Below are positions 5,624-46,284 of a stretch of DNA of 64,000 nt, piece by piece. Below the pieces are notes generated by a model. It was not told the origin of the DNA. It did not search any database and saw only the letters and a list, made by a program, of their open reading frames with translations. Within the stretch, counting starts at the first letter, position 1. Every line of letters starts with the position of its first letter. A program made the translations under genes and the position numbers. Origin of the DNA: Sulfitobacter sp. 20_GPM-1509m (lineage in GTDB: Bacteria; Pseudomonadota; Alphaproteobacteria; Rhodobacterales; Rhodobacteraceae); NCBI RefSeq assembly GCF_000620505.1, contig NZ_JIBC01000004.1, positions 1 through 64,000 of the forward strand. Direction: 5' to 3'.

Positions 5624-6519
5624 GTGCGCTCCAGTTCTGCATGGGCGGCGCGCAGGCCTGCCAATGTCATCTCGGTGGGGTCCAGACGCAGGACAGGCAC
5701 GCCCTGCGCTGTCAGGGCGGTCTGATAGGCGTCGGCGGAGGCGGCGGCACCGATCACCGCGACCTGCTGGCCCAGCCAATAGGGTTTCGCGGCGGCCAGT
5801 TCGATCCCGATCAAAAGGCCCGACAGGCGTGCGCGCGCGGTTGCACCGTCCAACCCGTCCAGCAACGCCTCGGCGCGCAGACCAAACAGCTTGGCGGCAA
5901 TGGCCTGCGGGCGACTGATCGCCGCGTCGACTGCATCGGCGAAAGCGGTGTCATCCCAGCCGTCAGCGGCCACGGAATGTCGCAACACCGATTGCCCGGA
6001 CAGCAGTGCAAACAGCTCGCCCGTCATGAAGGTCTGAAAGCTGACGATCTCGCCCGCGCTCAGGTGCGCCCATTTGGTGTGGGTGCCGGGCAGACAGGCG
6101 ATGCCGTCGAAACCGTCCTGTGTGGCGATCACCCCCTTGATCTGGGTCTCTTCGCCGCGCATCACATCTGCGGGGCTGCGCTGGCTGACGCCGGGCAGGA
6201 TGTGGACCTGTAACCGCTGGTCCTGTGTCGGGACCTGTAACGCTGACTGTGCATCGGGCGGGGTGCAAGGGACGCTCGTATAGGGTGCCTCGGCCCAACC
6301 CTGCCGCGCACCGGCCATGCCGCAAACAATCACTGGAACCGGTCCCTGCCCCAGCGCATCTTCGCACAGCGCCAGAAGCGCCGGTTCATAGTCTGACGGG
6401 GTCAGCGTGCCCATGCCGCGATCGCTGTGCCGGGCGTCCAGCACAGAGCCGTCCGCCGCCATCAACCACAGGCGCAGGTGGGTCGTCCCCCAATCGACCG
6501 CGATCCAGTCGACGTTCAT
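5620..6519 (-). CDS. dgoK: 2-dehydro-3-deoxygalactonokinase
   Basis: The 299-residue protein begins with the nucleotide-binding motif WIAVDWGTTHLRLWLM and contains VIVCGMAGARQGW and CLPGTHTKWAHL, all characteristic of DgoK. It phosphorylates 2-dehydro-3-deoxygalactonate with ATP, giving the substrate of the adjacent aldolase. Its ends overlap both neighbours by 4 bp (SDR upstream, dgoA downstream), so the four genes are translationally coupled. The length is normal and no defects are seen. Confidence 0.92.
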   Translation of the reverse strand: MNVDWIAVDWGTTHLRLWLMAADGSVLDARHSDRGMGTLTPSDYEPALLALCEDALGQGPVPVIVCGMAGARQGWAEAPYTSVPCTPPDAQSALQVPTQDQRLQVHILPGVSQRSPADVMRGEETQIKGVIATQDGFDGIACLPGTHTKWAHLSAGEIVSFQTFMTGELFALLSGQSVLRHSVAADGWDDTAFADAVDAAISRPQAIAAKLFGLRAEALLDGLDGATARARLSGLLIGIELAAAKPYWLGQQVAVIGAAASADAYQTALTAQGVPVLRLDPTEMTLAGLRAAHAELERT

Positions 6520-7286
6520 CCCGACACCGCCACGCCGCCGTCTACAACCATCGCCTGCCCCGTCATCATGCGGCTGGCCTGCGAGGACAGGAACAACACC
6601 GCATCGACAATGTCACGCGGGGCCAGATGCTCGGGCAGACATTGCCGCGCCAGATGCGCGGCCAGATCCTCGAGCGTGGCCCACAGGTCCATCTGCCGCT
6701 GTGTCAGAACCCAGCCGGGCATCACTGCATTCACGCGAATCTGGTCCGGCCCAAGCTCGCGCGCCAGAGCACGGGTCAGACCGGTCACCGCCGCCTTGGC
6801 CGTCACATAGCCCGCCATGCCCGCCATCCCCATCATGTAGGAAATCGATGAGAAATTCACGATAGAGCCATAGCCCGCAGCTTTCATCATCGGGGCGGCG
6901 GTCTGCGCGGTGAAGAAATGCGGGCGCAGGTTGACGTTCTGGCTCGCGTCCCAGTCCTGAACGGTGGTGTCCGCGATGTTCTGGCGGGTGTCGTTGGCGG
7001 CGTTGTTCACCAGCCGCGTGATCGGTCCGTGCGCCCGGGCTGCGGTGTGCATCGCATCCGTCAACGCACCTATGTCCGTGATGTCGCAAGGCAGGAACAG
7101 CGGATCATGTACATATTTACCAGAGATCTGTGCAACAAAATCACTGGCATCCGACCGCTGTACAAAGGCAACCTTGGCCCCTTGCGCGAGAAAGCCCTCG
7201 GTCAAAGCGGCCCCGATGCCCGAGCCACCGCCGGTGATGAACACAGAGGCATCCGCAAGGTCATGGAAGGTGGCGAAGGAAGTCAT
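6516..7286 (-). CDS. SDR family dehydrogenase (probable galactose dehydrogenase of the dgo operon)
   Basis: A 256-residue classical short-chain dehydrogenase. It has the cofactor motif TGGGSGIG near residue 18, NNAAND (NAG-type) near 91, the serine in NFSSISY and the YVTAK active site near 155-159. The C terminus (TGQAMVVDGGVAVSG) is typical. As first gene of the operon with dgoK, dgoA and a lactonase it probably oxidises D-galactose or a similar sugar to the lactone. This substrate is inferred; the fold alone does not fix it. The gene for the dehydratase step (dgoD type) is not in this operon. Confidence 0.85.
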   Translation of the reverse strand: MTSFATFHDLADASVFITGGGSGIGAALTEGFLAQGAKVAFVQRSDASDFVAQISGKYVHDPLFLPCDITDIGALTDAMHTAARAHGPITRLVNNAANDTRQNIADTTVQDWDASQNVNLRPHFFTAQTAAPMMKAAGYGSIVNFSSISYMMGMAGMAGYVTAKAAVTGLTRALARELGPDQIRVNAVMPGWVLTQRQMDLWATLEDLAAHLARQCLPEHLAPRDIVDAVLFLSSQASRMMTGQAMVVDGGVAVSG

Positions 7287-7346
7287 CTGTAACCCTTTTC
7301 ATCGCGCCACCCACCGAGCAGCGCCGCATCTTTCGTGTCAACGTAA

Positions 7347-7356
7347 TGTCATGACA
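7347..7356. promoter_or_regulatory. Palindrome upstream of the galactose/galactonate operon, possible operator
   Basis: TGTCATGACA is a perfect 10-bp palindrome 61 bp upstream of the first gene of the operon. Its position suits an operator for a local repressor, and GntR/FadR-type regulators bind sites of similar size. No regulator gene is next to the operon in this window, so the binding protein is unknown. Confidence 0.35.
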
Positions 7357-7640
7357 CGGGGAATGACAACAGAGATGGAGCGACATTTGAAACTGGCCAC
7401 AATCATTTGAAATTGCTTTGCTATTCCGTTGGCCCGAAATCCTTCGCTCTGTATCAGCATGGGATTGTTTTATTGTGGCTGCACAGGATATCGGACTTGG
7501 AATCCACAGGTTTAGCCGCAGAACCTCAGAGAATGCAGGCCTCTGGAACGCGCGTGACCGTCAAAGTTCGCGGATAGATCAGGATGCAGCATCCATCCAA
7601 AAAGCGGCGGGTTTCTGCCTTGGCGACTGCGGGCTCAGCT

Positions 7641-7649
7641 TGTGGATAA
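7641..7649 (-). promoter_or_regulatory. DnaA box (perfect consensus)
   Basis: TGTGGATAA, the complement of TTATCCACA. On the minus strand the context GAGTTATCCACAAGC shares GAGTTATCCACA with the box at 7871. Confidence 0.7.
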
Positions 7650-7714
7650 CTCTGCAAACGTGGTGAGCCATGCTTCACAAGCCCATGTAATTAAACAATA
7701 AGGACGCCGTTCAC

Positions 7715-7723
7715 TTATCCACA
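7715..7723 (+). promoter_or_regulatory. DnaA box (perfect consensus)
   Basis: TTATCCACA on the plus strand, opposite in orientation to the boxes at 7641 and 7871. Its flank CACTTATCCACA matches the isolated box at 46276. Confidence 0.7.
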
Positions 7724-7870
7724 GCCACGCCAGAAAGTTTGGCCGCAGTCGGTTTAAACCATGTCATTCCTGGCGGACGCAAGAAAGCCGCGTCGAACTG
7801 GTGATAATGAGCGGATTTCAAACGGTTTAAGCACACTTTTTCCCACCTAAAATGAGGCGCACCGCAAAGC

Positions 7871-7879
7871 TGTGGATAA
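7871..7879 (-). promoter_or_regulatory. DnaA box (perfect consensus)
   Basis: TGTGGATAA, the complement of TTATCCACA, directly before the A+T-rich stretch that reaches the end of ptsP. Confidence 0.7.
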
Positions 7880-7981
7880 CTCACAAAAAGCAACTAAAGG
7901 ACAAGAAATGAGGATTTCACAGGAAAAAACTGCGTATTTATGTTCTCAATATGAAAGTATTAAACCAGCAAAATCACCCGA

Positions 7982-10219
7982 TCACTGGTCGCGCAACCAC
8001 TCCATCACGGCGGGTCGGACGGACATCGCGCCGCGATGGCGCGTATCCGCAATCACCTTGCGCAATTCCTCGAGATTCGACCGCCGCAGCAGCGACTTTA
8101 CCGGCCCGATCGACGCAGGTCGCATCGACAGACGCCGCAGGCCGATGGCCGCCAGACACAGCGCCTCGACAGGGCGGCCGGCGTCCTCGCCACAGAAGGA
8201 AACCGGCGTGTTGCTTGCCGCACACCGCTCCACGATCTGCTCCAGAAAGCTCAGAAAGCTGACGTTCAGGGTATCATATCGCCGCCGCACCCGCTCGTTC
8301 TCGCGGTCGGCGGCAAAGAAGAACTGTTTGAGGTCGTTGCCCCCGATGGAGATGAAATCAACCTCTTCAAAGAACTTGCGCGGCGCAAAGCCCAATGACG
8401 GCGTTTCCAGCATCGCACCAACTTCGATCTTTGACGGCAACGGATGGCCCAGACGCCGCTCGCGTTCCAGCGCCTTGTTCACCTCGTCGCGGGCCTGTGT
8501 GTACTCTTCGTACTGCGCCACAAAGGGGAACATCACGTACAAAGGCCGCCCGTTCGCAGCGCGCATCAGCGCCTGCAACTGCATCCGCAATATGCCGGGC
8601 TTGTCCAGGCCGACGCGGATGGCACGCCACCCCATAGCGGGGTTGGGCTCGTCGTTGGGTTTCATGTAGGTCAGAACCTTGTCCGACCCGATATCCAGCG
8701 TGCGGAACACCACCGGCTTGCCCTGTGCCGCGTCCATGACACGGGCATACAGCGCGCTCAACTCAGAGCGTTTCGGCATCTGGTTGCGCACGAGAAACTG
8801 CAATTCGGTGCGGAACAGCCCCACCCCTTCGGCCCCCGAAGACGGCAGGGACGGCAGATCGGCCATCAGGCCTGCGTTCATCATCAGATCAATCTTGGCA
8901 CCGCACAGGGTTTCCGCAGGCTTGTCGCGGATCGACGCATAGCGTTGCAGCGCCTCGGCCTGCATTGCGATCTTGTCGCGAAAGGCGGAAACCACGTTGT
9001 CGTCTGGTCGCAGATGCACGATGCCCTGATCGCCATCAACCATCACCGGATCACCGTTCAACGCCTCGGTGGTGATGCCTTTGGCATGCACCACCAGCGG
9101 AATTGCCAGCGCCCGCGCGACAATCGCCGCATGGCTGCCGACCGAACCGGCCTCGAGCACGATCCCTTTCAGGCTGCGGCCATAGTCCAGCAATTCGCCC
9201 GGGCCGATGTTACGCGCAACAAGGATCGGATCGGGCGGCATTTCCGCGCCCGTATCCTGTCCCTGACCGGTCAGAATGCGCAGCAGACGGTTCGACAGGT
9301 CGTCCAGATCGCTCAGCCGTTCGCGCAGATAGCCGTCAGAGGCTTGACCCACACGCGCACGCGCCAGCGATTGTTCCTTTTCCACCGCCGCCTCGGCGCT
9401 CAGCCCGCGGCCAATATCCTCTTCCATGCGCCGCATCCAGCTCTTGGAGTTGGCGAACATTCGGTAGGCTTCCAGAACCTGCCGCTGCTCCTGGTCGGGT
9501 CCGGCAAGGCTCAGCATCTTGTCCACGCCGATGCGCAATTCATCCACGGCCGCGTTCAGCCGCTCCATTTCGCGTTGCGGATCGTCGGCAATCGGGTTCA
9601 CGACCACCACACGCGGCTCGTGCAGCCAGATGTGGCCCTCGGCCACGCCCTCCTGGCCTGTCGTGCCCTTGATCATCACCGGATGACTGTGGCGCGCGGA
9701 CATCGCGGCGCCCTCGCCCACAAAGGCGCCCAGCTCGGTCATCTCGGCCAGCACCATCGCGACGACTTCCAGCGCATAAACCTCGTCAGCGGAAAATTCG
9801 CGCGCATCCTTGGATTGCACGACCAGCACGCCCAGCGCCTCGCCCAGACGCTGCACGGGAATGCCCAAAAAGCTGGAATAAACCTCTTCGCCGGTTTCGG
9901 GCATGAAACGGAAACCGCTGGCCTTGGGTGCGTTGGCGGTGTTCACCACCTGCCGACGTTGGGCCACACGGCCCACCAGCCCCTCGCCCAGGCGCATCCG
10001 CGTCTGGTGGACCGCCTCGGGCTTCAGCCCTTCGGTGGCGCACAGTTCCAGCGTCTCCTGATCGCGGAACAGATAGATCGAGCACACCTCGCAGCCCATG
10101 GACGACGCGATCAGCGCGGTGATCTTGTCCAACCGTGTCTGTCCGGGAGCATCCTGCGCCAGTTCGTCGCGCAGCCGGCCCAGCAATTTGCGGCTCTCGG
10201 TGTCTGTGCGCTCTGTCAT
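7982..10219 (-). CDS. ptsP: Phosphoenolpyruvate-protein phosphotransferase, PTS-Ntr enzyme I (GAF domain)
   Basis: A 745-residue enzyme I of the nitrogen-type phosphotransferase system. Residues about 25-165 form a GAF sensor domain. The phosphohistidine motif GSVGSHAAIVARAL lies near 360, and the C-terminal PEP-binding barrel ends in the active Cys motif SFCGEDAGRP near 676. It passes phosphate from PEP to NPr and on to EIIA-Ntr, a regulatory relay for nitrogen and potassium status, not sugar uptake. The start at 10219 has a strong ribosome site (AAGGGGGG). It is separated from lysC by about 160 bp, so co-transcription is possible. Confidence 0.95.
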   Translation of the reverse strand: MTERTDTESRKLLGRLRDELAQDAPGQTRLDKITALIASSMGCEVCSIYLFRDQETLELCATEGLKPEAVHQTRMRLGEGLVGRVAQRRQVVNTANAPKASGFRFMPETGEEVYSSFLGIPVQRLGEALGVLVVQSKDAREFSADEVYALEVVAMVLAEMTELGAFVGEGAAMSARHSHPVMIKGTTGQEGVAEGHIWLHEPRVVVVNPIADDPQREMERLNAAVDELRIGVDKMLSLAGPDQEQRQVLEAYRMFANSKSWMRRMEEDIGRGLSAEAAVEKEQSLARARVGQASDGYLRERLSDLDDLSNRLLRILTGQGQDTGAEMPPDPILVARNIGPGELLDYGRSLKGIVLEAGSVGSHAAIVARALAIPLVVHAKGITTEALNGDPVMVDGDQGIVHLRPDDNVVSAFRDKIAMQAEALQRYASIRDKPAETLCGAKIDLMMNAGLMADLPSLPSSGAEGVGLFRTELQFLVRNQMPKRSELSALYARVMDAAQGKPVVFRTLDIGSDKVLTYMKPNDEPNPAMGWRAIRVGLDKPGILRMQLQALMRAANGRPLYVMFPFVAQYEEYTQARDEVNKALERERRLGHPLPSKIEVGAMLETPSLGFAPRKFFEEVDFISIGGNDLKQFFFAADRENERVRRRYDTLNVSFLSFLEQIVERCAASNTPVSFCGEDAGRPVEALCLAAIGLRRLSMRPASIGPVKSLLRRSNLEELRKVIADTRHRGAMSVRPAVMEWLRDQ

Positions 10220-46275: not shown

Positions 46276-46284
46276 TTATCCACA
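46276..46284 (+). promoter_or_regulatory. Isolated DnaA box upstream of cpaC
   Basis: A perfect TTATCCACA with the same CAC prefix as the box at 7715. It lies 115 bp before cpaC. DnaA can act as a transcription factor, but a single box may be chance. Confidence 0.35.

Follow-up and report, generated by a model that had tools for sequence, protein, structure and literature searches.

Introduction

Sites outside the replication origin at which DnaA is controlled have been worked out in E. coli and B. subtilis, as the accounts cited here describe them (PMC4585315, PMC10380432, PMC5295017, PMC5010248). When six of the DnaA-box clusters (DBCs) of B. subtilis are removed, initiation occurs early, an effect that these accounts read as titration (PMC5295017, PMC5010248). 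Sequences similar to the E. coli sites DARS1 and DARS2 are described in one account as conserved in many proteobacteria (PMC10380432), and reviews mention DARS-like sequences for V. cholerae and other proteobacteria. Here we describe a group of three perfect DnaA boxes behind the ptsP gene of an alphaproteobacterium of the Roseobacter group, Sulfitobacter sp. 20_GPM-1509m (the source genome), and ask to which kind of DnaA site it might belong.

A Box Cluster in the ptsP Gap

The window is the whole stretch of DNA analysed, 64,000 nucleotides, and the positions of the features are collected in Table 1. The initial annotation of the window had reported three perfect boxes within 240 bp, where fewer than one was expected in the window, two of them sharing a longer sequence, beside an A+T rich run in a gap with no credible gene, between ptsP and a dgo operon. 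These observations stand. Only 0.11 exact copies of TTATCCACA are expected in the window, and 100 shuffles produced at most two. The 12-mer GAGTTATCCACA is present twice, 230 bp apart. The run has 66% A+T, as against 38% for the window, and a part of it (7923-7976) is among the only three places where 40-mers of the window reach 75% A+T or more; the corresponding stretch before box 1 has 58-71% A+T in the source genome and in the four genomes of the genus that keep boxes. The neighbours are borne out by Pfam domains: on one side are the ptsP-type protein and an amino-acid-kinase/ACT protein (aspartokinase type), and on the other lie the SDR, DgoK, a KDPG-type aldolase and an SMP-30-type protein. 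A search of 6900-8300 against Rfam, up to E = 1, gave no match, and an RNA gene in the gap was rejected. A ptsP terminator was sought in 7200-8100 and not found. GANTC sites number from zero to three per gap and follow no pattern.

Read in the orientation of ptsP, the boxes have the order +, -, +, with spacings of 156 and 74 bp. The exact box is not enriched in the genome overall (20 copies vs. 25 of the reversed motif), so it is only the clustering that stands out. Among these 20 sites, three within 500 bp are found in the ptsP gap only, and two within 500 bp elsewhere solely at C4:255164 and 255276. When 20 sites were placed at random, three came within 240 bp of each other in 2 of 200,000 draws. 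The window contains a fourth exact copy of TTATCCACA (46276-46284), a single box far from the cluster that sits between a cpaB-like and a cpaC-like gene, both named by eye, in a pilus cluster.

Table 1. Positions of the cluster, its surroundings and other loci mentioned in the text. Numbers without a prefix are positions in the window; C numbers are contigs of the source genome and L numbers are loci of the comparison.
Feature	Position	Strand	Remark
DnaA box 1	7871..7879	(-)	TTATCCACA inside GAGTTATCCACAG; first box past ptsP stop codon
DnaA box 2	7715..7723	(+)	TTATCCACA; opposite in orientation to boxes 1 and 3
DnaA box 3	7641..7649	(-)	TTATCCACA inside GAGTTATCCACAAG
Gap holding the cluster	7287..7981		apparently non-coding
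A+T rich stretch	7880..7981		66% A+T; from box 1 to ptsP stop codon
ptsP-type gene	7982..10219	(-)	GAF + PEP-utiliser domains (Pfam); cluster behind its 3' end
Short-chain dehydrogenase (SDR) gene	6516..7286	(-)	Pfam; first gene of dgo-type operon
dnaA	C3:323060
hemE	C7:158275
Best parB match	C3:374744
mraZ-upstream cluster	L132 10164-10299; also L202, L203, L204		L132 is the source genome
xthA-upstream pairs	L166 8350-8434; L167 9791-9875; L168 8287-8371; L205 453-537

The Replication Origin

Three perfect boxes that adjoin one of the three most A+T rich places of the window invite the view that the ptsP gap is the chromosomal origin, which was the lead reading of the initial annotation. We give it next to no chance. 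With the window divided into eight parts of 8 kb, each part has negative GC skew. On contig C3, by contrast, negative skew gives way to positive around 340-375 kb. It is C3, too, that carries the best parB match and, at about 367-370 kb, maf, hemJ and rho. The likely origin of the source genome is on this contig near 367.8 kb, between maf and hemJ-rho. A box group in that gap (C3:367777-368090), consisting of one exact and two one-mismatch boxes, is the only close group with an exact box between 200 and 420 kb. Extended to C3:368181, the region comprises the exact box, the two near matches and a strongly A+T rich stretch before hemJ. Of the five other genomes of the genus that we compared (G010-G014), G012 (C1:3198564) and G013 (C1:46304) were seen to have the same gap, and in both it contains two exact boxes. 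Similar criteria have been applied to Rhodobacteraceae origins by Kopejtka et al., whose account names the GC-disparity minimum, a local GC minimum and parAB (PMC6699656). As signs that the origin lies elsewhere, the initial annotation had named a GC-skew minimum and a coverage peak away from the gap together with a stronger box cluster near dnaA or hemE. The skew switch does lie elsewhere, but no stronger cluster of perfect boxes was found near either gene.

The contigs of the source genome are unordered, and the distance from cluster to origin is taken from two relatives. In G012 a single contig, C1, bears both loci, the cluster (C1:2181111-2181347) being 1.02 Mb from the maf-hemJ gap. Seven 20-kb stretches sampled between 2.17 and 3.19 Mb have negative skew, and those sampled at 3.30 Mb and beyond have positive skew; elsewhere in this genome it is noisy (negative at 800001, positive at 2000001). 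In Roseobacter sp. MED193, where the origin region was placed by skew and parB, the cumulative skew, as sampled, has its minimum near 2.27 Mb, and the switch of sign is near 2.286 Mb, not far from parB (2292632). The box behind ptsP (3747453) is 1.46 Mb from the skew minimum. The 20 kb around the skew switch of MED193 contain no exact box. On C2 of the source genome an initially negative skew becomes positive near 165-205 kb (C2:164001-204000) but is back below zero at 404 kb, which may reflect an inversion or an island; because of this irregularity, only the local sign was used for the window.

Thus, the ptsP gap was rejected as the chromosomal origin on account of the skew and of the maf/hemJ-rho gap elsewhere. 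No skew minimum or sign switch coincides with the cluster in the source genome (C2, C3) or in the sampled stretches of G012 and MED193, and G013 does without boxes behind ptsP. A caution follows for the naming of origins: perfect DnaA boxes alone can mislead, as the ptsP gap has three and the likely true origin one.

Since boxes and A+T rich DNA look origin-like, the gap might also be a former or dormant origin, for example one captured from a plasmid, that has been kept by chance. We regard this as quite improbable. The boxes are retained within the genus (see below), no replication initiator is encoded among the six neighbours scanned, and the skew does not switch at the cluster.

Retention of the Boxes Within the Genus

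Four of the five other genomes keep two or three of the boxes with their orientation and spacing, in the order +, -, + wherever present. Counted from the ptsP stop codon, the three boxes have offsets of 103, 259 and 333 in the source genome, 105, 261 and 335 in G011, 114, 267 and 339 in G010, and 113, 266 and 341 in G012; in G014 boxes 2 and 3 have offsets of 272 and 347. Box 1 is at the same place in G010, G011 and G012 and is absent in G014. Box 2 is at the same place in G010, G011 and G014; its counterpart in G012 reads TTATACACA, which fits the R-box consensus TTWTNCACA. Box 3 is at the same place in all four. The fifth genome, G013, lacks all three boxes: its ptsP gap is shorter and has no R-box, which means that the site is dispensable. 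G013 has 33 exact boxes genome-wide, compared with 20 in the source genome; two of the 33 lie 212 bp from each other at C1:499308. It is conceivable that the extra boxes compensate for those missing behind ptsP.

The spacers have diverged, and outside the boxes the gap is hardly alignable between most species of the genus. Over the first 345-360 bp, boxes excluded, the source genome and G011 are 76% identical, whereas the other nine of the ten pairs show 61-68% identity in gapped alignment, as against 61-62% after shuffling (SD 0.02-0.03). Some of these nine are 2 to 3.5 SD above the shuffled identity, so it is not only the boxes that have been kept. For G010, G014 and G012, 20,000 gaps per genome were simulated with a first-order model. 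No simulated gap had two or more boxes to within 16 bp of where they belong; the real gaps have three, two and three, respectively. No other part of the gap is nearly as well kept as the boxes, and, to judge from the sequences, the site looks selected in close relatives.

The box geometry of the source genome is close to genus-specific. Among 394 genomes of the family, drawn evenly and including the source genome, the pattern of boxes 1 and 2 occurs in two (the source genome and G112) and that of boxes 2 and 3 in three (the source genome, G090 and G381). In G112, G090 and G381, the 1.5 kb to either side of the pattern contain no frames that look like ptsP by eye.

Recurrence Behind ptsP in Rhodobacterales

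The wider comparison used the best 80 loci from at least 584 relatives in Rhodobacterales, which are not a random sample; L062 was left out of the search of the relatives' genomes. In seven of these 80 loci the 500 bp behind ptsP contain exact boxes, nine in total, and six more are in the remaining sequence. By the wider consensus TTWTNCACA, the same 80 loci have 13 R-boxes in the 39.4 kb just after ptsP vs. 22 in 1,025 kb elsewhere, a density about 15-fold higher (p = 1.7e-10). For the reversed motif, too, the density there is higher, about 5-fold (2 in 39.4 kb vs. 10 in 1,025 kb); composition therefore explains part of the enrichment, but not all of it. In a comparison restricted to gaps, the ptsP gaps (9.0 kb) had seven exact boxes and other gaps (59.7 kb) two; genes were called roughly here, by longest frames, and because spurious frames covered those in L053 and L084, seven of the nine boxes were counted. 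It should be noted that an R-box in the 500 bp after ptsP is found in only nine of the best 80 loci, with a single box in five of the nine. The other 71 have none, including L056 and L083, which were scored as box-less with 72 and 310 bp of sequence after ptsP.

In a quick ptsP tree (LG+G4, midpoint-rooted, 86 rows), all 14 box-bearing rows (the nine loci, the source genome and four others of the genus) fall in one half comprising 53 of the 86 rows (SH-aLRT 98). Box presence requires 10 changes on this tree. The mean after shuffling is 13.2, and 4 of 500 shuffles were as low. One old origin of the ptsP-gap boxes with many losses, or several gains, would both fit.

The boxes could instead serve a DnaA-controlled promoter, of the SDR-dgo operon or of a transcript antisense to ptsP. 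DnaA is described as a transcription regulator too in Caulobacter, according to the cited account (PMC3193534), the SDR is next to the gap in all six genomes of the genus, and one weak promoter-like site lies on the + strand in the A+T rich stretch, pointing into ptsP. That site is at chance level, however, with one found against 0.7 expected (sigma-70 consensus only), and G013 keeps the SDR without the boxes. Box 3 is 355 bp away from the SDR start codon. Outside the genus, the gene that follows a box-bearing ptsP gap varies, being zwf-like, FAD-hydroxylase-like or ABC-transporter-like (by eye). The position 3' of ptsP, the distance to the next start, the lack of a clear promoter and the variety of neighbours all speak against control of a single gene, and we consider a promoter function unlikely.

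Other Groups of DnaA Boxes

A second group in the source genome precedes mraZ. At C4:255164-255299 there is TTATCCACA (-), TTATCCACA (+) 112 bp on, and TTATACACA (-) a further 15 bp on. This group is like the ptsP cluster in having three R-boxes whose spacing is kept within the genus, identically in the source genome, G010, G011 and G014, the four of the six genomes that were compared there. It differs in that it precedes a gene start, which makes transcription control plausible there, and DnaA could possibly control the division operon through these boxes. In MED193 two exact boxes 12 bp apart lie between rsmH-like and mrp-like genes, by eye in the region of the mraZ cluster. Pairs of exact boxes, 76 bp apart on the same strand, are found upstream of xthA in G003, G004, G005 and G014. 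G003 also has three exact boxes between proS-like and lolC-like genes (L169 9838-10021; named by eye). On these chromosomes, the ptsP cluster thus seems to be one DnaA locus among several.

Concluding Remarks

In sum, we favour the view that the ptsP cluster is probably a conserved non-origin DnaA-box locus that titrates or modulates DnaA, the binding being predicted. The boxes exceed chance, lie away from oriC, are kept in four of five genomes of the genus and are rare in the family; since their sequence, order and spacing have all been retained, DnaA suggests itself as the ligand. The initial annotation had offered a site for titration or reactivation of DnaA as its alternative, and this is now better supported than the origin. 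DnaA would bind the three boxes, and the complex would withhold DnaA from oriC, which amounts to titration. Alternatively, the complex might shift the ATP/ADP state of DnaA via contacts across loops. In either case, the site would duplicate only on arrival of the fork, which would couple free or active DnaA to the progress of replication. We rank plain titration above conversion of the nucleotide state. Counting against our favoured reading, three boxes are few where about 20 exact boxes exist genome-wide.

Full-text literature searches, in which most subscription papers were outside the coverage, found no paper linking ptsP with DnaA boxes, and the papers on Rhodobacterales oriC or DnaA boxes so found make no mention of ptsP. 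For datA and DARS in Alphaproteobacteria, they led to a review on secondary chromosomes. The ptsP gap thus presents a Roseobacter-group site that is kept box by box amid DNA that mostly turns over, and that is missing in one genome of the same genus. Strains with and without the boxes constitute a natural experiment on the importance of such sites in alphaproteobacteria.

In closing, the comparison with known systems allows the locus to be placed more closely. It might be an element like datA or DARS, at which DnaA-ATP is hydrolysed or DnaA-ADP reloaded; boxes that include an inversion and hold a fixed spacing would suit an ordered, looped complex better than a loose sink. We doubt this for the present. 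No IHF-like site is at a shared place in the genus gaps: WATCAANNNNTTR, with up to one mismatch, was found in the first 420 bp once each in the source genome, G010 and G013, at different places, and not in G011, G012 and G014, a scan that is a weak test since the IHF specificity of the host group is not established. Nor is there a compact head-to-head core, the nearest consensus boxes being 72-75 bp apart. With neither the datA IHF site nor the DARS core found, we file the cluster under neither. More speculatively, and with a similarly small chance of being right, the cluster could be an alphaproteobacterial counterpart of datA or DARS with an architecture of its own, in which a loop between inverted boxes would change the nucleotide state of DnaA at a mid-replichore position and so time the next initiation, and which would have been repeatedly lost or remodelled in the Roseobacter group.

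Feature by feature, E. coli datA, as the cited accounts describe it, likewise has several boxes in non-coding DNA, with the boxes kept and the changes mostly in the spacers (PMC4585315). It differs in having five boxes, where the ptsP gap has three, an essential IHF site and a location near oriC (PMC4585315, PMC10380432). DARS1 and DARS2 share with the ptsP gap three DnaA boxes that include an inversion, and DARS2 also its location away from oriC, on the same kind of evidence (PMC10380432, PMC5010248). The distinction from DARS is drawn from the E. coli description of its core and among consensus boxes: there the three-box core has boxes I and II head-to-head (PMC10380432), whereas the boxes of the ptsP gap are 74 and 156 bp apart. 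The B. subtilis DBCs, finally, are clusters of DnaA boxes in non-origin DNA, as is the ptsP cluster (PMC5295017, PMC5010248). They belong to another phylum, and those studied are described as close to oriC, whereas the ptsP site is 1.0-1.5 Mb away in two relatives.
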